Position numbers and translations under genes: made by a program | The notes under the pieces: model-generated | Database searches by the model: none | What the model saw: the letters and a program-made list of their open reading frames with translations, nothing else | What the model was told of the DNA's origin: nothing | Part shown: in pieces, positions 4,875-64,000 of the stretch | Layout: each line of letters begins with the position of its first letter | Position numbering within the stretch: the stretch's first letter is position 1 | Assembly: GCF_900446255.1 (NCBI RefSeq) | Contig: NZ_UIGI01000001.1 | Location: 1,018,763 to 1,082,762, forward strand | Source of the DNA: Buttiauxella agrestis | GTDB lineage: Bacteria; Pseudomonadota; Gammaproteobacteria; Enterobacterales; Enterobacteriaceae | Direction of reading: 5' to 3' | Length of the DNA stretch: 64,000 nucleotides

Positions 4875-5783
4875 ATGGACCAGAAACGACTTACTCACTT
4901 ACGGCAACTGGAGGCGGAAAGCATCCATATCATCCGTGAGGTCGCCGCCGAATTTGCTAATCCGGTGATGATGTATTCCATCGGCAAAGACTCCTCGGTG
5001 ATGTTGCATTTGGCCCGTAAAGCCTTCTACCCAGGCACGCTTCCATTCCCGCTGCTGCATGTTGATACCGGCTGGAAATTCCGCGAGATGTACGATTTCC
5101 GTGACCGCACCGCGAAGAACTACGGTTTTGAGCTGCTGGTGCATAAAAATCCGGAAGGCGTGGCGATGGGGATTAACCCGTTCGTGCACGGTAGCGCTAA
5201 ACATACCGACATCATGAAAACCGAAGGGCTGAAACAGGCGCTGAGTAAGTACGGGTTTGATGCCGCCTTTGGCGGCGCGCGTCGTGATGAAGAGAAATCT
5301 CGTGCGAAAGAACGTATCTATTCTTTCCGTGACCGTTTCCACCGCTGGGATCCTAAAAACCAGCGTCCTGAACTATGGCACAACTACAACGGCCAGATTA
5401 ACAAAGGCGAGAGCATTCGCGTGTTCCCACTTTCTAACTGGACCGAGCTGGATATCTGGCAGTACATCTTCCTGGAAAATATCGAAATCGTTCCGCTGTA
5501 TCTGGCCGCACCGCGCCCTGTGCTTGAGCGTGATGGCATGCTGTTGATGGTGGATGATGACCGCATCGATTTACAACCTGGCGAAGTGATTGAGCAGAAA
5601 ATGGTGCGCTTCCGTACCCTGGGCTGCTGGCCGCTGACCGGTGCCGTTGAGTCCGAAGCGCAGACGCTGCCGGAAATCATCGAAGAGATGCTGGTTTCGA
5701 CCACCAGTGAACGTCAAGGGCGGGCAATTGACCGCGACCAGGCAGGCTCCATGGAGCTTAAAAAACGCCAGGGTTATTTCTAA
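4875..5783 (+). CDS. cysD: Sulfate adenylyltransferase subunit 2
   Basis: 302 residues, same length as E. coli CysD. The ATP-pyrophosphatase P-loop ([12 protein letters not shown], about 36-47) and the [16 protein letters not shown] segment typical of the CysD/PAPS-reductase family are present. With CysN it makes adenosine 5'-phosphosulfate from ATP and sulfate in the cytoplasm, the first activation step of assimilation. ATG 4875 is preceded by GGGAAGG. First gene of a tight cysDNC operon, 11 bp from cysN. CysB control is expected from the family, but no CysB site was delimited in the 4607-4874 interval. Confidence 0.97.
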
Positions 5784-54863: not shown

Positions 54864-55700
54864 ATGGTTAAAGCAAAAAAGATACTGCACTCGTTCCGCT
54901 ACGAAGGCGATGCTGAAGGGGCTAAACTCGCTCGTCCCGTTTTCTTCCGTTCGTTTATGCTAGCTGAGAATGTGCAATCCGAGCTTCATTCTCACCCTTT
55001 CATTCAGTTCCACTATGCGCGTGAAGGCTCCTTATACATTTCCGTGGAGAATAATTCGTACATCATTCCGGCCTGCTACGGTTTGTGGATACCGGCTTTT
55101 ATGCCTCATAGGGTGCAAACCGCCAGTGAAGTGATGCTGGAAAACCTGGATATTGACCCTGACTATTACGCGTCCACGGGATTTAAAGCCGAACTGAAGT
55201 TAGTGACAGTCTCTGATTTTGCCCGCAGCTTCATCCACCATGCTACGCATACTATCCCTGAATTTTATGATGCCGATGGCAAAGAAGGGCGGCTGGTTTC
55301 CACATTGATCGATGTGCTAAACGATCTCCCGGCCGCAGGCTTTGCCATGACCTGGCCTACGGCACCGGCACTGCTGGAAATGTGTCAGATAATCAGTGAA
55401 TCACCAGATTTACCGCATTTAATGGAAGACTGGGCTGAGAAAGTGGGTATGTCGCCACGCACCTTTTCACGACATTTCATCAAAGAAACGGGCATAACGT
55501 TTAGTAACTGGAAACAACGGCATCGTTTGCTGCATTCCATTATTTTATTACGCCAGTCGCGCAGCGTGACCGAAATTGCATTAATGCTGGGATATGGCAG
55601 TACATCAGCTTATACCTACGCATTCCGCCAGTTATTTGGTGTTTCACCTTCACGCTATGAAGCCGCACCTCCACCACCGGATGCGATTTTATATGATTAA
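54864..55700 (+). CDS. AraC-family transcriptional regulator
   Basis: 278 residues. N-terminal cupin-like sensor domain (HSHPFIQFHYAREG, about 42-100) and a C-terminal double helix-turn-helix (about 185-268; EKVGMSPRTFSRHF, then EIALMLGYGSTSAYTYAFRQLFGVSPSRY). Divergent from the FUSC-cfa-metK group across 254 bp, so it may control it. Ligand unknown. Confidence 0.92.
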   Translation: MVKAKKILHSFRYEGDAEGAKLARPVFFRSFMLAENVQSELHSHPFIQFHYAREGSLYISVENNSYIIPACYGLWIPAFMPHRVQTASEVMLENLDIDPDYYASTGFKAELKLVTVSDFARSFIHHATHTIPEFYDADGKEGRLVSTLIDVLNDLPAAGFAMTWPTAPALLEMCQIISESPDLPHLMEDWAEKVGMSPRTFSRHFIKETGITFSNWKQRHRLLHSIILLRQSRSVTEIALMLGYGSTSAYTYAFRQLFGVSPSRYEAAPPPPDAILYD

Positions 55701-55718
55701 AACTACGGATAATAAAAA

Positions 55719-55747
55719 ACCGGAAATCAGAGAACATTTCCGGTTTT
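55719..55747. terminator. Bidirectional terminator between araC-type gene and malic enzyme
   Basis: ACCGGAAAT and ATTTCCGGT arms, with an A-tract before and a T-tract after. Serves both convergent genes. Confidence 0.88.
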
Positions 55748-55763
55748 AGTTTTTTCTAATCTA

Positions 55764-57425
55764 TCAGAACGAAATACGTCTGTAATTCTGATATTCGGGT
55801 TTCCAGAACATATCCTCTAGCTTATCTTCTAATTCAGATTCCATCATTCTTGTTGCCACACCATCTTCTGCCCCGGCAAGTGCAACGGCAATGGCAATTT
55901 TCTTAGATATTTCATGGATATTGGTCAGTTCAGGTAACAGCGCGCCATGTGGGTCTTTGAGTAAAGGTGATGAGAGCGCAAGGACTTTACTGGCGGCCAG
56001 GAACATATTTTCGGTCACACGTTTAGCATTTGACAGCAAAACTCCCAATCCAAGGCCTGGGAAGATATAAGAGTTATTGCACTGGGAAATAATGTGACGA
56101 TGGCCTTTGTACATGACCGGCGCGAATGGGCTTCCCGTAGCAATGATTACATTACCTTCGGTCCACTCAATAATATCCTCAGGTAACGCTTCCACGCGGG
56201 ATGTTGGGTTCGATAGGGGGAAAATAATCGGCGTGGAAGCGCAAGAATGCATCGATTTAACCACTTCCTCCGTAAACAGACCAGGTACACCGGATACCCC
56301 AATTAATATCGATGGTTGAATGCAATTAATCAGCGCCGCGATATTTTTGCCATCAGGCGAAAACGGCAAGGTTTCTCTTGCATGAGCGAGTCGATACTGG
56401 AAATCAGTTAATGCAGGTGTATCTTTTAATACCAGGCCATCTTTGTCGACAAGGAATATATGGCTTCTGGCAACGTCCTCATCGACTCCATCAGCTTTAA
56501 GCGCAGAAACAATGAGTTCGGCAATACCGCAACCTGCGGATCCTGCTCCCACGAACATAATACGTTGATCAGAAAGTGATGTCTTATTATGCAGGCAAGC
56601 CGCGAGAATAGAGCCTAATGCGACGGCCGCTGTTCCCTGGATATCATCATTAAAACAACATAATTTATCCTGATATTCTTTGAGCAATGGTGTGGCGTGT
56701 TGCAGTGCAAAATCTTCAAACTGCAACAAAACGCCAGGCCAACGGCGTTCAATTGCAGAAACCACAATATCAATAAACTCAAAATATTCTGCTTCTGAAA
56801 CGCGCGAGTGGCGAGCACCCATATACAATGGATTGTTTAATAACTCTTTATTATTGGTGCCCACATCTAACATGATAGGGAGACACTGGTGTGGCGCGAT
56901 GCCGCCGCATGCGGTGTACAGAGACAATTTTCCGATAGGAATGCCCATCCCACCGATTCCCTGGTCACCCAGCCCAAGAATGCGCTCACCATCGGTCACG
57001 ACAATGATCTTAATATCATCACTCAGGACATTTCGCAGGATGCTTTCAATATTGTTGCGGTCCTCCCAGGCGATAAAGACGCCTCGGTTTTTACGCCATA
57101 TCTCTGAAAAGTGTTGGCAGGCATAGCCCACCGTCGGGGTATAAATTAACGGCAGCGAAGCCTCAATGTTAGATGTGATGTAATGATAAAAAAGAACCTC
57201 ATTTGTATCTTGCAGGTTACGCAAAAAAACATGTTTGTCTTCATCAGTAATGAAGTTATTTAGCTGGAAACGTATCCGATCGCTTTGCTCGCCTATAGTT
57301 TCTACAATGGTCGGGATAAGCCCATGTAAATTAAATTCATTACGTTCACTATCACTAAATGCGCTTCACTTATTAAAGGTCGTGTTACTTAGCAGGGATT
57401 GCCCGGAAAGATGGGTGTATCGCAT
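55764..57425 (-). pseudogene. NAD-malic enzyme (MaeA-like) gene with an internal TGA
   Basis: From ATG 57425 the frame reads MRYTHLSGQSLLSNTTFNK, then TGA at 57366-57368, then SAFSDSERNEFNL and on to the stop at 55764 without further damage. The TGA stands where MaeA proteins have Gly (GSAFS), so one G-to-T change explains it. Catalytic motifs after the stop are intact: IYTPTVG, DGERILGLGDQG, FNDDIQGTAA, GAGSAGCGIAE. Total 553 codons against 565 in E. coli MaeA. A shorter product could start at a non-ATG codon near 57224, but would lack conserved N-terminal helices. Confidence 0.8.
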
Positions 57426-58001
57426 TTTACTCTCACTTGGTTTAATGGCTGACTGGTGAACATTGCCGGGAGGTATATTCCTAATTATTTTTTGATGCAA
57501 GTGAGCTAAATGACTCCTCGAATAGCTTATTCAAATAGGTTATATGCTTTTCGCAATACTGAAATGGTTGAGAATAATAAAAACAAAAAACTAACAACTA
57601 TAATTCTCAAAGAATTTATCTGAAACAATGTGCTGCACAAAAGAAACAACATTAAGACAGGTGTATTATTTTAAGGCGAAGTGCAACAAAATATAACTGG
57701 AAGGTGAGCGTTTATTTAATCAACAGCAGTAGCACCTTTCATTATGTGGAGTATTAATTTGCACTGGTCAGCCTGCACGCATAGCTAATGCTTTACTGAC
57801 GACAACATTGTGCACTTTTTTGTCTATTGCGCTTTTAACGCTATGTCCATTTTTGTCTATTTCAGGGAATGTATTTAATATTTTAGTGGGCGTATGATTA
57901 ATATTCAGAATAAATCCCTAAGTTGATGCATTTTTATTTTATAAATGTATCCCGTGGTTACTTTAACGGCTATCTAACTGTATTGCGAGGATGTCATCAA
58001 T
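57426..58001. other. Long AT-rich interval with direct repeats
   Basis: 576 bp without a gene between the divergent malic enzyme and membrane-protein genes. Two direct copies of TTTTTGTCTATT lie about 34 bp apart (57816-57828 and 57850-57862). No RNA gene or insertion sequence recognised. Confidence 0.5.
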
Positions 58002-58493
58002 ATGTTTAAAAAAATCTCTTTTCACATTATCCCGATACAAATTTTTCTTGGTATCTTTTGGTTTAAAAACGGATTCATTGATAAGGTTTGCGGTATTTTC
58101 AATGGACTGATGTCGCCAGAAACGGCTTACCATGGGGATACCTGGGCAGGCTGGAAGGAGTATATCGTTGGTACCTGGGACAAGAGCCAGGTGGGTCATA
58201 TTGTATTAAGCCCGCTGTTTGATGCACTTTTCCCGGTCTTAATTATTCTTCAGTGCCTTCCTTTCATCTTCATTATTGTTTCTATTTTGAAACTGGAGTT
58301 TTTGACAGATGCCAAAGCCCGTCCATGGTTGATGAAGAGTGCTGTAGCTTCATTATTTGTTACCAGCGTGATGTTGTTTAGCCAGACACTGTCCGGCGCA
58401 AGCGATGGTGAATATCTCTGGCATCTTCTGGCTGCGGGAATGGTTCTGATCATGTATATCAAAAATATTAATACGATCACCGGCAAAGCATAA
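58002..58493 (+). CDS. Four-helix inner-membrane protein of unknown function
   Basis: 163 residues with hydrophobic segments at about 7-25, 70-95, 108-128 and 135-155, and a GFIDKVCGIFNGLMSP loop after the first. The pattern is loosely DoxX-like but no family is certain. Divergent from the malic-enzyme pseudogene. Ends before a bidirectional terminator. Confidence 0.75.
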   Translation: MFKKISFHIIPIQIFLGIFWFKNGFIDKVCGIFNGLMSPETAYHGDTWAGWKEYIVGTWDKSQVGHIVLSPLFDALFPVLIILQCLPFIFIIVSILKLEFLTDAKARPWLMKSAVASLFVTSVMLFSQTLSGASDGEYLWHLLAAGMVLIMYIKNINTITGKA

Positions 58494-58530
58494 GCACTGC
58501 GCTGTAAATTAAGCGCCTATCAGACACAAA

Positions 58531-58562
58531 AAAGCCCGCCTGATTTACACCTGGCGGGCTTT
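58531..58562. terminator. Bidirectional terminator
   Basis: AAAGCCCGCC and GGCGGGCTTT arms between convergent genes ending at 58493 and 58571. Confidence 0.88.
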
Positions 58563-58570
58563 CAATTTCA

Positions 58571-59431
58571 TTATTCGTATTGCTGATCGCGCTCTTTGGC
58601 TGCTCGCTGACGGTCGTAATATTCATCTTCTGCTGTGATGATCTCATCCATCAGAGAATCCATATCCACGTCATGCTGTTCTTCAACGAAGAGACCGGTT
58701 AACACGGTTTCTGGCGTGAGCTTTCCATCTTCATACAACGCCCAAATTTCTTTCGCATATCGCGTTTTCAATAATTGCGGGGCGAACTGGCCATAGTATT
58801 CGGTGATGTTATTCACATCGCGTTCAAACATGGACTCGGCGTGGTTATTGGCGGCGGCGTCAACGGCTTGTGGCAAGTCGATAATGACCGGGCCGTGGGC
58901 ATCGAGCAGCACGTTAAATTCCGATAAATCACCATGCACCAAACCTGCGCACAACATGCGTACGATATTGCCGATCATGGTGTTGAAATCCGCAATCGCG
59001 CTTTCTTCGTCGAGGGTGACGTCGCTCAGACGTGGTGCGACTGCGCCGTCAGCATCGGTGACCAACTCCATCAACAACACACCGTCGATACACAGGTAGG
59101 GCTGCGGCACGCGAACCCCCGCGTTTGCCAGACGGAACAACGCCTCGACCTCTGCCGTTTGCCAGGTTTCTTCCTGTTGCTTGCGCCCGAACTTCGAGCC
59201 TTTTTGCATAGCACGAGCATTACGGCTATTCCGGACTTTACGCCCTTCCTGGTATTGCACCGCCTGCTTAAAGCTACGTTGCGTCGCTTCTTTGTACACT
59301 TTGGCGCATTGGATTTTGTCACCGCATAAAACAGTGTAAACGTCAGCTTCTTTACCGCTTTTCAGGCGCTGAAGAACATCGTCTATCAGCCCGTCATCAA
59401 CCAGCGGTTGGATTCTATTTGGGATTTTCAT
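58571..59431 (-). CDS. RIO-type serine/threonine kinase
   Basis: 286 residues. ATP-lysine candidate Lys44 (CAKVYK), catalytic loop LVHGDLSEFN (Asp168, Asn173) and metal-binding VIIDLPQ (Asp185) match RIO1 kinases; the N-terminal SGKEADVY is the RIO nucleotide loop. In archaea and eukaryotes RIO kinases act in small-subunit maturation; the role of the enterobacterial form is not established. Acidic C-terminus. Gene stands alone. Confidence 0.9.
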   Translation of the reverse strand: MKIPNRIQPLVDDGLIDDVLQRLKSGKEADVYTVLCGDKIQCAKVYKEATQRSFKQAVQYQEGRKVRNSRNARAMQKGSKFGRKQQEETWQTAEVEALFRLANAGVRVPQPYLCIDGVLLMELVTDADGAVAPRLSDVTLDEESAIADFNTMIGNIVRMLCAGLVHGDLSEFNVLLDAHGPVIIDLPQAVDAAANNHAESMFERDVNNITEYYGQFAPQLLKTRYAKEIWALYEDGKLTPETVLTGLFVEEQHDVDMDSLMDEIITAEDEYYDRQRAAKERDQQYE

Positions 59432-59598
59432 GCCGCTTTATACCTTATTTCTGACGCTTTTCGTACCAATAGCACCGTTGAGGATACGAGAAAATGTGGG
59501 AGATTTTCAGGCCGCATCGGTAGGAATACCGTAACTATATGTATTTTATTGCTTGTCCGCAGGTGAGCATTTAATTGAACAGGTGCCATGAAATGAAC

Positions 59599-60243
59599 CT
59601 AGCCGATAATTGTGATCCCCAAGCGATCCATTATCTGTATTACCTGATAATTATCCAGCTTAACGCCTTGTAAATCGGTGCCTCGCACGTCCAGGTCACC
59701 CAGTTCTGAATTGGTCAAATCGCAATGGGTAAAATTGGCTGCGCGCCAGTCAAATGAAGAAAATTCACCGCCGGAGAGATCGGAACCGCTAAATGTCGCG
59801 CCGAGTATCTGAGCGCCATTCCAGCGGTTTTCCCATAGCTCGCACTTCTCAAGCACCACCTTTGAAAAGTTGGCGTAGCTCAAGTTGGTTTTGGTGATAT
59901 AGGCACTGCAAAACCAGCTGCGAGTTGTGATCATATTCATAAAACTTGCGCCGCGAAAGTCCGCGCCCTGCGCCCGACACTCGCGGATTTCAATACCCAG
60001 TGCGCTGGCGTTTCTGAAATCTGCCATTGATAAATCACAGCTTTTGAAGGCCGCATCTTTCAGGATTGCCCGGTTAAAATTGCCACCTTGCTGGCTTTCT
60101 CTGTCATAAAACTGGCAGCCAATAAACTCGGTACCGGTCAGGTCCGAGCCTGAAAAGTCACAATTAAAGAAAGTGCTGTTCTCAATTTTCGCACCGGTAA
60201 ACTGATTACGACCCACTTTTTCGCCATTCAAAGCCAGATTCAT
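59599..60243 (-). CDS. qnrB-like: QnrB-type pentapeptide-repeat protein
   Basis: 214 residues, exactly the QnrB length. Right-handed beta-helix of A/S-x-L/F repeats throughout, with the family segments IENSTFFNCDFSGSDL, FIGCQFYDRES and FCSAYITKTNLSYANFSKV. Qnr proteins mimic DNA and protect gyrase/topoisomerase IV from quinolones. Differences from QnrB1 recalled from memory are scattered, so this is a chromosomal relative rather than a recent plasmid copy. A LexA box lies 10 bp before ATG 60243. Confidence 0.93.
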   Translation of the reverse strand: MNLALNGEKVGRNQFTGAKIENSTFFNCDFSGSDLTGTEFIGCQFYDRESQQGGNFNRAILKDAAFKSCDLSMADFRNASALGIEIRECRAQGADFRGASFMNMITTRSWFCSAYITKTNLSYANFSKVVLEKCELWENRWNGAQILGATFSGSDLSGGEFSSFDWRAANFTHCDLTNSELGDLDVRGTDLQGVKLDNYQVIQIMDRLGITIIG

Positions 60244-60253
60244 TGCAATTAAC

Positions 60254-60269
60254 CTGTTTATTTATACAG
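60254..60269. promoter_or_regulatory. LexA box of the qnrB-like gene
   Basis: CTGTTTATTTATACAG fits CTGT-N8-ACAG. SOS induction of qnrB through such a box is established for the family. Confidence 0.88.
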
Positions 60270-60378
60270 TCAATGATTGATTGTAACTGAATTGAGAGAG
60301 GGGGAAAACGGTTTGAGGGACGTTTTTTGTATGGAGCGTTGCGCCACTCGCAATAGACTGGTGAATGGCGCCAATCGT

Positions 60379-60666
60379 TTATTTCGGATGACGTGCGCGC
60401 ATTAGCCTTGTGACAGGCGCGTGGGTCTGCGGATCAAAATAGCGGCTCGGCCAGATGGTTTCGGCGGGCACGCCAATCGCTTTGCTTATTAGCAGTTCCC
60501 CTTTTGCCCACGGGCGTGTCAGTGCGTTGGCGAGCGTCGATGAACTTAAACCCGCGGCGCGGGATTCGGCTGCCAGTGAGGTGCCTTTTTTACGCAGTGC
60601 GGCGATGATGTCGGCTGGGTGCCAGTCCTGAAAGGGCAGGAAAGTGGGGCTGTGTGAAAGTGTCAT
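60379..60666 (-). CDS. Ner-like DNA-binding regulator (SfsB/Nlp family)
   Basis: 95 residues. DWHPADIIAALRKKGTSLAAESRAAGL and LANALTRPW form the lambda-repressor-like helix-turn-helix of Ner/SfsB; IWPSRYFDP is the family tail. Mu Ner represses the early promoter; SfsB affects sugar genes. Its ATG directly abuts the stop of a small leader frame. Confidence 0.9.
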   Translation of the reverse strand: MTLSHSPTFLPFQDWHPADIIAALRKKGTSLAAESRAAGLSSSTLANALTRPWAKGELLISKAIGVPAETIWPSRYFDPQTHAPVTRLMRARHPK

Positions 60667-60873
60667 TTACATCTCCTTGTAGTGATAACGACTACCACCG
60701 GAGCTGCGAAACTCTTTTGGTGGTAGCTCAGACAAGGTTCGCAGTACCGGCCTACAAGGACACCGGCCAGCCCGAAGGCTGCCCTGCCTGAGCCACCATT
60801 GAAGTTGTGAGTACAGTTTTTGAACTGTGCATCCAACAGGTGTGCGGAGACATTCACACTCAATGTAGAACAT
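60667..60873 (-). CDS. Possible 68-residue leader peptide before the Ner-like gene
   Basis: ATG 60873 has a good ribosome-binding site (AAGGATC). The frame starts MFYIECECLRTPVG, ends RYHYKEM, and its TAA touches the ner ATG. Two other frames over the same DNA also carry phage Ash/Icd-like segments, so coding is uncertain. Confidence 0.3.
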   Translation of the reverse strand: MFYIECECLRTPVGCTVQKLYSQLQWWLRQGSLRAGRCPCRPVLRTLSELPPKEFRSSGGSRYHYKEM

Positions 60874-60960
60874 TAAGTGATCCTTGTAGGTTTGACCGGG
60901 CTGCGAAACCCGGCTGCGGATTTTGCCGCAGCGGTGGCGACTATATCGTAAATCAAAGAT
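60667..60960 (-). other. Phage-derived Ash/Icd-like leader with C4-RNA-like hairpins
   Basis: On the minus strand two hairpins, CTGCGG-CAAAAT-CCGCAG and CCGGG...CCCGG, precede the leader. Downstream a frame reading SMVAQAGQPSGWPVSL, then interrupted by stops, resembles Ash/Icd-type phage proteins. Such regions in P4/P1-like phages carry C4 antisense RNA control. Assignment is from recall of these families. Confidence 0.4.
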
Positions 60961-61144
60961 GTTAACCAACCCGCTAATAGACGGAATGCGAGTTGTTTTC
61001 CAAAGAATTTTTCTGCGTTGCAGGAATTGCAAGGGAGTCGCGCCAGTCGCAGGCTGCAAGCCGCAGACATATAACAAAAAGTTTAATTTTATTATATGGA
61101 TAGGTTCATATAATCCGTTAACAAATTCACAACAGGTTAACGCG

Positions 61145-61546
61145 ATGAAAATTTTAGCGGCTTCTATCCTCTCCTTGATCAGCTTCAGCGTACTTGCAGC
61201 ACCCGAAGGAACGCTTAGTGTTCATATTCTCAACCAACAGACTGGTTTACCTTCGCAAGGCGTAGTCGTCGAGTTGGACAAACAAGAGAGTTCTTCCTGG
61301 AAGCACCTTGCGACTTCGAAAACGGATACCGGCGGCAGAATCAAATCACTTTTCCCGGACGCTGGTGATATGGAACCTGGCATCTATAAAGTGACCTTTA
61401 AGGTGGGGGATTATTTCAAAGCAAATAATCAGGAAACATTCTTCCCGTCAGTTCCTGTGATTTTTAACGTCACAAAGACGAATCAAAAGCTCCATATCCC
61501 TTTGCTGTTGAGTCAATACGGTTACTCAACTTACCGGGGGAGTTAA
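61145..61546 (+). CDS. hiuH: Periplasmic 5-hydroxyisourate hydrolase (transthyretin-like)
   Basis: 133 residues from ATG 61145 with signal peptide (cut near VLAA). The active-site His in SVHILNQQTG (about 27), Arg and the C-terminal YRGS signature are present. Hydrolyses 5-hydroxyisourate from urate or related cysteine-regulated substrates in the periplasm. Upstream in-frame codons to 60923 are not part of the gene. Confidence 0.93.
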   Translation: MKILAASILSLISFSVLAAPEGTLSVHILNQQTGLPSQGVVVELDKQESSSWKHLATSKTDTGGRIKSLFPDAGDMEPGIYKVTFKVGDYFKANNQETFFPSVPVIFNVTKTNQKLHIPLLLSQYGYSTYRGS

Positions 61547-61580
61547 GATCAGTTATCGTTAATTGCCTGAGTTTATTGAT

Positions 61581-61609
61581 GGCCACTGGCATTTGCTGGT
61601 GGCTTTTTT
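61581..61609 (+). terminator. hiuH terminator
   Basis: GCCAC and GTGGC arms followed by a TTTTTT tract, 35 bp past the stop. Confidence 0.75.
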
Positions 61610-61931
61610 ATGGGAGGGAATCTATTCCGATCACAATCTTAACTAGAAATCTGTCATGGTTATAATTGAATGTCGTGATCCGATGCGCATTTTAAAGATA
61701 TTTACCCTGGAAAAAGCTCACTGCTGAGATTGTTCCTGCTTCGAGAAAATCAATAAATAAGATATTTCATTTGAAAATCTGTGATGCTTGTTCATTTAAT
61801 TATTAATAATGCTAAATTACATAACTTTACATTTAATGCGTAAAAAAATACAAAAAATATACTTTCCCTTACATTTTTTGTGTGTGATATTCAGATAGCA
61901 CTTTTTGCACAATTTAATTGAGAGGGATTTT
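61610..61931. other. AT-rich leader of the microcin cluster
   Basis: No gene. Base composition drops sharply relative to hiuH. A possible promoter is TTGAAA (61771-61776), 18-bp spacer, TTTAAT (61795-61800). A partial Fur-like A/T stretch is present but is not convincing. Confidence 0.4.
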
Positions 61932-62282
61932 ATGTCTGGAATCAGAGAATTAAGTTTTGATGAGATTGCATTAGTAAGCGGTGGTAGCGCGAATGGTCAG
62001 GATGCGGGTGAACGCAGCAACTACGGGAATAATAATGCCCGAACTAGCTACGGCGGTCAGGCTAACGGTTTTCAGCCTAACTATGCAGCAAGCGGACATG
62101 GCTTACTCGATGGTGTATCCCGTGACTGTTTAACTTCTATGGCTATTGGTACTGCAAATGTAGTTGCCGCAGGTGCAAGCCGTAGCATTACTGGTTTTGG
62201 CACCGCAGCTGCATCAGCACTAAATGATATTGGTAAAACCTGTAACGATAATAATTCACGCAGTGGGCCTCCGTTTCATTAA
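61932..62282 (+). CDS. Class II microcin precursor (double-glycine leader, MccPDI-like)
   Basis: 116 residues from ATG 61932 (GAGAGGGA upstream). The 18-residue leader MSGIRELSFDEIALVSGG ends in Gly-Gly and matches class II microcin leaders, closest to the microcin PDI leader as recalled. The predicted 98-residue mature part has a hydrophilic Asn/Gly/Ser-rich start (1-39), then a Cys at 48, a Gly/Ala/Ser-rich membrane-like core (about 51-80), a Cys at 86 and a polar tail ending GPPFH. A disulfide between the two Cys is likely. Followed by a small membrane protein, an HlyD adaptor and a C39-peptidase exporter, the full microcin layout. The mature part is not identical to any microcin I know. 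Confidence 0.85.
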   Translation: MSGIRELSFDEIALVSGGSANGQDAGERSNYGNNNARTSYGGQANGFQPNYAASGHGLLDGVSRDCLTSMAIGTANVVAAGASRSITGFGTAAASALNDIGKTCNDNNSRSGPPFH

Positions 62283-62311
62283 ATGTATTGAATGTTAAAA
62301 TGGGAAGTATA

Positions 62312-62545
62312 ATGAATATTAGCAATTGCATAAGATTTTCAGTGAAGGTTATTATAGGGTGCGTGCTTATATCATATTTATTTGAAATTACTGGATATAA
62401 CCATGTGAATAACTTCGTTAACAAACTAGCTTTGTCATTATTTGTTACTTATGGCTCAATTAAGCTAGCAAAAGAAATATATGATTGGTCACTTTCTCTT
62501 TTGAAATGGTTAACTAAATCGCCAGTTTCAAAACCTTTTAATTAA
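62312..62545 (+). CDS. Putative microcin immunity protein
   Basis: 77 residues from ATG 62312 with GGGAAG directly upstream; an 85-residue version from 62288 is less likely. Two hydrophobic helices (about 6-28 and 38-55), short basic ends. Lies 29 bp after the microcin gene on the same strand, AT-rich. Immunity role inferred from position and small membrane form; no sequence family recognised. Confidence 0.65.
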   Translation: MNISNCIRFSVKVIIGCVLISYLFEITGYNHVNNFVNKLALSLFVTYGSIKLAKEIYDWSLSLLKWLTKSPVSKPFN

Positions 62546-62678
62546 TTAAAAATAAATAGTTAGTGAGTTTGTCTCACTAACTATTTACAGTGGTTTCATG
62601 CCTAGCCTTCAAGATAATCACAAGAGTTAGTTATTTTGCAGTCATAGTTTTCCTTTAAAGAAAACAAGAAAATTATAA

Positions 62679-63938
62679 ATGAAAATGAGTCTGTTTCGAA
62701 AGGAAGCTGTAGACCATCAAAACGATGCAGGACATGGAGATATCATTATTCCGACATCGTTTGGTATATCGTTCAGCGCAACAGCAACGATCGGACTGAT
62801 AGCTTTAATTTTTACTTTCCTTTATTGGGGTCAGTATACCCGTAAAGCACACCTGTCCGGCATTGTAATGCCCTCAACCGGGCTGATAAAAATAACACCT
62901 CAATATCCCGGATACATCACGGACTTAACGGTTTCGGAAGGTCAGCACGTAGCTGCCAGCGCCCCTCTTTATCACATCAGTGGTGAACGCTATAACGGGC
63001 AAGGAGCTGGAACGCTGGCAGCCATGAGCCTGTCACTGAAAACACAGTATTCGATGCTGACTTCACAGCAGACACTCGAGCAGCGTGATAACAGTCAGCA
63101 ACAGCAGGCCACCCGGCAACGCATTTCCTCCCAGCAGCCACAGCTAAAAAGTGCAGAAGAACGTCTCACTCATGCTGAACATCAGGTGCAGTTATCCGCT
63201 TCCGTTATGAGTCGCTATCAGAAACTCGTCGCCACCCATTACGTTTCAGATATCGAGTATCAACAGAAACAAATCGAGGTCTCTGCAGCACAGGAAAACG
63301 TCGAAAACCAGCGTCAGCAGCTTCTACAGCTACACACCACGCTGGATACGGCCGAAGACGATCTGAAGCACCTCATCACACAGGGCGAAAGCCGGCAGGC
63401 AGAGCTCGACAGACAACTTCAGGGGATCCGACAACAACAGCTTGAGCTGGCGGGCCAGGCAAATTTCACACTGACCTCACCAGTATCCGGCACCGTGGCC
63501 GCCATACTCGTCAGACAGGGGCAGTCAGCCAAAGCGGCAGAGCCGGTCATGACTCTGATACCGGATAATGCCCGCCTGCAGATAGAACTCTATGCATCCA
63601 GCCAGCATGCCGGCTTTATCCAGCCGGGGCAGCGCGTGGCCCTCCGGTTTGCGGCTTTCCCTTACCAGAAGTTCGGTGTTCAGTATGGAACTATCCGCGA
63701 AATCAGCCGGACGACGCTGACCGCCTCCGATTTACTCTCCGTATCCCCGGTAACCTGGAAGGAAAACGAAGGCCACTATCGTGTGATTGTGGTGCCTGAA
63801 CATACGTTTATCCTGGCTTACGGGCGAAACGAACCGCTGAGACCCGGCATGACCCTTGAAGGGGATGTCAGCCTTGATACCCGCCACCTGTGGGAATGGC
63901 TGACCGAGCCACTCTGGAGCCTTAAAGGAAAACTGTAA
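62679..63938 (+). CDS. Microcin export periplasmic adaptor (HlyD/CvaA/MchE type)
   Basis: 419 residues. N-terminal membrane helix (about 33-52), lipoyl-type half (YPGYITDLTVSEGQHVAASAPL), long coiled coil (about 110-260), second lipoyl half (LTSPVSGTVAAILVRQGQSA) and a beta domain. It bridges the inner-membrane exporter to TolC. Higher GC than the microcin and immunity genes. The stop overlaps the next ATG (TAATG). A start at ATG 62685 is also possible. Confidence 0.92.
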   Translation: MKMSLFRKEAVDHQNDAGHGDIIIPTSFGISFSATATIGLIALIFTFLYWGQYTRKAHLSGIVMPSTGLIKITPQYPGYITDLTVSEGQHVAASAPLYHISGERYNGQGAGTLAAMSLSLKTQYSMLTSQQTLEQRDNSQQQQATRQRISSQQPQLKSAEERLTHAEHQVQLSASVMSRYQKLVATHYVSDIEYQQKQIEVSAAQENVENQRQQLLQLHTTLDTAEDDLKHLITQGESRQAELDRQLQGIRQQQLELAGQANFTLTSPVSGTVAAILVRQGQSAKAAEPVMTLIPDNARLQIELYASSQHAGFIQPGQRVALRFAAFPYQKFGVQYGTIREISRTTLTASDLLSVSPVTWKENEGHYRVIVVPEHTFILAYGRNEPLRPGMTLEGDVSLDTRHLWEWLTEPLWSLKGKL

Positions 63939-64000
63939 TGGATGTACTGAAATGGACGGGAAGAAAGCATCTTCCGGTGATCCGCCAGACGGAATCGGCC
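63938..64000 (+). CDS. Microcin exporter ABC/C39 peptidase, N-terminus only
   Basis: 21 codons reach the window edge: MDVLKWTGRKHLPVIRQTES plus one Ala. The QTESA segment is the start of the C39 peptidase active-site region (QTESAECGLACL in relatives); the catalytic Cys lies just outside. The complete protein should cleave after Gly-Gly and pump the microcin. Confidence 0.82.
   Translation, partial: MDVLKWTGRKHLPVIRQTESA

Follow-up and report, generated by a model that had tools for sequence, protein, structure and literature searches.

Only ten class II microcins had been experimentally validated at the time of a 2022 survey (PMC9746304), and further ones have since been shown to be active (PMC13101503; PMC13174018). 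Two described systems bear most closely on the locus treated here: microcin PDI (genes mcpM, mcpI, mcpA, mcpD and mcpB) and microcin S (mcsS, mcsI, mcsA and mcsB, on plasmid pSYM1 of Escherichia coli G3/10), the latter 80% identical to PDI (PMC9746304). PDI is cut twice, at G17/G18 and G35/A36, and needs Cys57 and Cys90 (PMC5311971), and the C-terminal part of class II microcins is their uptake domain (PMC13174018; PMC13101503). Here, we analysed 64,000 nucleotides of Buttiauxella agrestis DNA (assembly GCF_900446255.1, contig NZ_UIGI01000001.1, positions 1,018,763–1,082,762 of the forward strand; hereafter the window). The reading of window positions 61932–64000 as a chromosomal class IIa microcin operon is well supported, and we consider quite probable the overall explanation developed below, that of a class IIa microcin whose toxin body and small open reading frame (ORF) form a cassette within a conserved chassis.

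The operon and its premicrocin

Four genes follow one another on the + strand: a 116-residue premicrocin (61932–62282), a 77-residue two-helix protein (62312–62545), a 419-residue HlyD-family periplasmic adaptor (62679–63938; Pfam HlyD_3, E 1.7e-16) and the first 21 codons of a peptidase-containing ABC exporter (63938–64000), the remainder of which lies past the window edge. A first-pass annotation had read this segment as a double-glycine precursor, a small two-helix gene, an HlyD adaptor and the start of a C39 exporter, and ORFs, Pfam and hydropathy place each element at the position it was given. For the exporter, the 21 codons agree fully with the beginning of a 724-residue protein encoded whole in a related Buttiauxella species (genome G005), and that protein has the domains Peptidase_C39, ABC_membrane and ABC_tran; the window itself ends short of the ECGLAC stretch, which we take to be the site of the C39 catalytic cysteine. 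Adaptor identity is 95% with G005 and 75% with B. gaviniae (genome G008). Although adaptor matches at E 0.001 occur in all 12 Buttiauxella genomes, close ones are confined to these two, the other matches listed among the 12 reaching at most 32% identity.

The premicrocin begins with an 18-residue leader ending in GG, within the class IIa leader range of 15–19 residues, followed by a linker (residues 19–65), a core (66–104) and a tail (105–116). Its translation agrees with the mature part described in the first-pass annotation, namely 98 residues with two cysteines 38 apart (Cys66 and Cys104, flanking the core) and a GPPFH end; at 9.8 kDa, this part fits the class IIa mature size of ~5–10 kDa. 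The core is hydrophobic, with a mean hydropathy of 1.02 at residues 65–83, and the C-terminus, NDNNSRSGPPFH, is without the Gly/Ser-rich siderophore motif of class IIb. A second double glycine, GG41-42, sits in the linker within the motif YGGQANG, which is conserved in several relatives. A leader pattern, composed with this kind of leader in mind, gave a single match across all six reading frames of the window and none in 30 mononucleotide shuffles.

Neither the premicrocin nor the small ORF belongs to a meaningful family in NCBIfam, Pfam or PHROGs, the small ORF giving a single Pfam line below cut-off (Reticulon, E 0.024). For the premicrocin, the NCBIfam miss is no evidence of novelty, because microcin S and five relatives likewise hit no NCBIfam microcin family and gave only weak lines under cut-off; one such line, on the leader of a Pluralibacter relative (L039), has an E of 0.49 and points to a class IIb bacteriocin model from Gram-positive bacteria. 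Among PDB sequences the best match had an E of 0.5, and an AlphaFold2 model built from 8 sequences (pLDDT 48.1, pTM 0.19) was not used for a fold search.

Comparison with microcin S refines the relationship to known systems. The leader, annotated at first pass as resembling that of PDI, is indeed of the PDI/S type, its nearest counterpart being that of microcin S, with 17 of 18 residues identical to McsS. The adaptor, the exporter type, the upstream region and a small two-helix ORF after the toxin are also shared with microcin S. In contrast, microcin S has four cysteines, a CSR tail, a plasmid location and the CPBP/CAAX gene mcsI, whereas the window peptide has two cysteines, a GPPFH tail and a chromosomal location, and no CPBP-type ORF lies between premicrocin and adaptor. 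Similarity between the two mature parts is no higher than for shuffled sequence. The mature part, unrecognised at first pass, does have relatives among hypothetical microcins. Direct comparison covered S and V among the ten microcins verified by 2022; PDI was compared through microcin S. With that scope, PDI and the window peptide have the same leader type and the same layout, two cysteines enclosing a Gly/Ala-rich core (residues 57 and 90 in PDI, 66 and 104 here), with no sequence similarity shown; the second cut at G35/A36 in PDI (PMC5311971) has a candidate counterpart at GG41-42.

Cassette exchange and the small ORF

Aligned with the G005 operon by blastn, the window is 91.3% identical over 61041–62029 and 93.5% identical over 62674–64000, while the intervening stretch, from premicrocin codon 33 to 5 bases before the adaptor, has no blastn match to G005. 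At that position G005 carries a different toxin, ending in GGTCSR, and a different 74-residue small protein. The exchanged segment (62030–62673, + strand) thus runs from toxin codon 33 through the small ORF and the spacer that precedes the adaptor. The same pattern is seen in two E. coli plasmid loci: L005 and L006 are 95.9% identical until L005 position 4266, inside the toxin gene, and 90.3% identity resumes at 5288, shortly ahead of the adaptor (5311); between the two, a single 55-bp piece matches at 78%. These sequence comparisons show that toxin body and small ORF make up a cassette replaced as one unit, with the leader ahead of it and the exporter behind it conserved. Cassette exchange as such is not new, since a Klebsiella quasipneumoniae microcin S cluster has been described that differs around mcsI and in parts of mcsS and mcsA (PMC10269471). 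Hybrid microcins of Pantoea and Erwinia, with parts resembling H47 and PDI, likewise represent modular exchange between class II parts (PMC13174018). As a separate observation, an Enterobacter soli locus (L040, 6001–8334) has three consecutive toxin-like cassettes ahead of one exporter; the first toxin frame is broken by an in-frame stop and the second resembles the G005 cassette.

Base composition varies along the operon. Against 50.4% G+C for the window overall, the premicrocin has 46.7% and the adaptor 52.6%, while the small ORF has 28.6% and the gap that follows it 27.8%. The upstream region (61615–61931, + strand), which probably contains the promoter, aligns with six relatives. Its last ~60 bases before the premicrocin resemble the region upstream of microcin S, and the blastn match to pSYM1-type plasmids starts at 61870. 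A scan for promoters and terminators gave sites no more numerous than in shuffles.

The small ORF has two hydrophobic 19-residue peaks (mean Kyte-Doolittle hydropathy 1.95 and 1.16). Across 14 chosen loci, toxin cores covary with their small neighbouring ORFs (Mantel r 0.82, p 0.0001), whereas leaders do not in the same test (r 0.15, p 0.10); the small ORF is therefore probably the immunity gene, an assignment with which its position, its hydropathy and a weak similarity to other such ORFs are consistent. In pSYM1, an unannotated 65-residue ORF (L069, 3451–3648) lies between mcsS and mcsI and is of the kind that covaries with toxin cores.

In pairwise comparison the evidence is weaker: the window's small ORF is only weakly similar to the ORFs beside toxins with the same tail, BLASTP similarity being weak or nil. 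Partly for this reason we judge a broader proposal to be less likely than not. Under that proposal, peptides ending in G[PAV]PF[HR] would form a separate class IIa family, paired with two-helix immunity proteins of a distinct family and using an outer-membrane receptor that is neither OmpF nor one of the siderophore receptors. They would spread by cassette exchange into a fixed leader/exporter chassis, and the small ORF, rather than the CPBP protein, would serve as immunity partner in general, microcin S operons included.

Relatives, insertion site and neighbourhood

The mature part is related to those of three hypothetical microcins, L039 (Pluralibacter), L041 (Enterobacter) and L007 (WP_127469808.1, from a Klebsiella pneumoniae plasmid), with none of 500 shuffles aligning as well. 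The whole precursor aligns with each at 33–55% identity, and all share the two cysteines around the core and the G[PAV]PF[HR] end, which is thus found in Pluralibacter, Enterobacter and Klebsiella plasmids. L039 and L041 bear an extra CPBP gene and L007 is on a conjugative plasmid; the window has neither feature. In the literature searched, outside the supplements of the microcin surveys (PMC9746304, PMC11494933, PMC13174018), which may list relatives, we found no text describing these three peptides and no paper joining Buttiauxella with a microcin. Two further loci were noted. In Pluralibacter UBA7423 (L043, 6001–6381), a premicrocin combines the linker of the window peptide (YGGQANGFQPNYAA) with a PDI-like Cys-rich tail, a natural hybrid; the ORFs listed over the following 5 kb include no exporter. 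In Buttiauxella genome G012 (L002, 608–1782), a remnant locus retains a truncated premicrocin frame, still with the linker and DAT repeats, along with small membrane ORFs and the terminal part of an ABC exporter.

With the premicrocin (P0001) as query, 4 of 147 relatives gave a match at E 0.001, though not at full length, and 6 of 392 genomes of the family did so at E 0.01, three of them at full length and one of these three with an in-frame stop; 394 genomes of the order yielded 4 weak partial matches. A profile (A3) had no match in those 394 genomes and matched 9 of 10 chosen genomes and records, three of which are themselves sources of its rows. Pattern searches gave 158 stretches in GTDB contigs, 10 of which encode a relative (9 distinct loci, including genomes already found), and 134 stretches in IMG/VR, none confirmed. 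Among 72,556 plasmids, 95 records matched, 20 of them across at least 80% of the query; 19 of the 20 listed are from Klebsiella, at 32–34% identity. Neither the small ORF nor the mature part of L039 had a match among the plasmids searched, and the searches alone therefore do not tie the Klebsiella peptides to the rest. The 3-kb stretch 61000–64000 matched 110 of 5,426 E. coli genomes, none across 80% of its length. The toxin part and the likely immunity gene belong to a little-described family, while the leader and exporter follow a type already known from E. coli.

Of the genomes compared, the nearest (G001), perhaps of the same species as the window strain to judge by a single 6-kb stretch, has no operon at this site. 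It is 96.8% identical over window positions 55544–61614 and then diverges, the break falling directly after a hairpin behind hiuH (HIUase/transthyretin family), where the upstream region of the operon begins. In G005 the operon occupies the same site, between hiuH and a ~110-bp stretch, in an inserted segment of ~4.75 kb (L028, 5768–10521); in G001 and G008 that stretch lies within about 20 bp of hiuH. In G008, whose own operon is elsewhere on the same contig, the ~110-bp stretch continues into the 3' end of the gene for transfer-messenger RNA (ssrA), which serves as an integration site for islands. Comparison of these genomes shows that some carry the operon, as identified by sequence, between hiuH and an ssrA-associated site and others lack it there. 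Only short direct repeats were found at the ends of the inserted segment, none of them at both ends. Downstream of the G005 operon are genes for a CbtA toxin, a CbeA antitoxin and RadC. Two genes from the window operon, a chromosomal gene of the Qnr pentapeptide-repeat family (59599–60243, - strand) scores 334.8 bits against NCBIfam NF033086 (cut-off 240) and falls below the QnrB and QnrE cut-offs. Beside hiuH, a C4 antisense RNA (60716–60803, - strand; Rfam RF01695, 82.9 bits) was detected, as it was in all four related loci scanned (L028, L060, L061 and L062).

Proposed mechanism and alternative readings

By analogy with known class II systems, the exporter would cut the premicrocin after GG18 and, together with the adaptor and TolC, secrete a 98-residue peptide, or one of 74 residues if a second cut occurs after GG42, as the PDI double cut and the conserved YGGQANG motif suggest it may. 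A Cys66–Cys104 bond could hold the Gly/Ala-rich region as a hydrophobic hairpin. The short GPPFH-ending tail probably sets the receptor, by analogy with the uptake domains above, and would then select an outer-membrane receptor distinct from that of PDI and S. The hairpin would next damage the inner membrane of related Enterobacteriaceae, as PDI and the hydrophobic core suggest, while the 77-residue protein would shield the producer.

The first-pass annotation had gone further and proposed a PDI-like, contact-dependent inhibitor. A functional equivalent of PDI, with proximity-dependent killing, OmpF uptake and EnvZ/OmpR control, would account for a leader almost identical to that of microcin S, itself 80% identical to PDI (PMC9746304), for the alignable upstream region and for two cysteines around a Gly/Ala-rich core; up to this point the PDI likeness stands. 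It does not extend to the mature part, for which contact dependence of the PDI kind is not supported: this part compares with microcin S at shuffle level, and the CSR tail, the third and fourth cysteines and the CPBP gene are all missing, so that we regard equivalence as unlikely. A class IIb microcin with a C-terminal siderophore would suit the chromosomal location, listed as usual for that class (PMC10233263), but is extremely improbable: the peptide has two cysteines and an end not rich in Gly/Ser, and neither the ORFs in the window part nor those in the complete G005 operon include a modification gene.

That the operon is decaying and no longer yields an active microcin is a reading we find improbable. 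Toxin genes are interrupted in E. soli and Yokenella and the G012 locus is a remnant, and the exporter is incomplete here, though solely because the window ends; every frame in the window is open, and over the adaptor identity to the complete G005 operon reaches 95%. A non-toxin role for the double-glycine peptide, such as a signal, appears very improbable, as the covarying small membrane protein and the joint block exchange fit a toxin/immunity pair, and microcin S, which combines the same type of leader and exporter, is a killing peptide (PMC3316575). The reading as a class IIa microcin operon is thus retained, the operon being marked by the unusual tail of its peptide, by what is probably a separate immunity type and by a clear cassette exchange.

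The covariation test also points to a small ORF missed by annotation, for example on pSYM1, which encodes microcin S. The distinct tail of this family, with its matching small membrane protein, holds out the prospect of a receptor yet to be discovered, and the two Buttiauxella operons, which share site and exporter and carry different cassettes, constitute a natural experiment in microcin toxin change.
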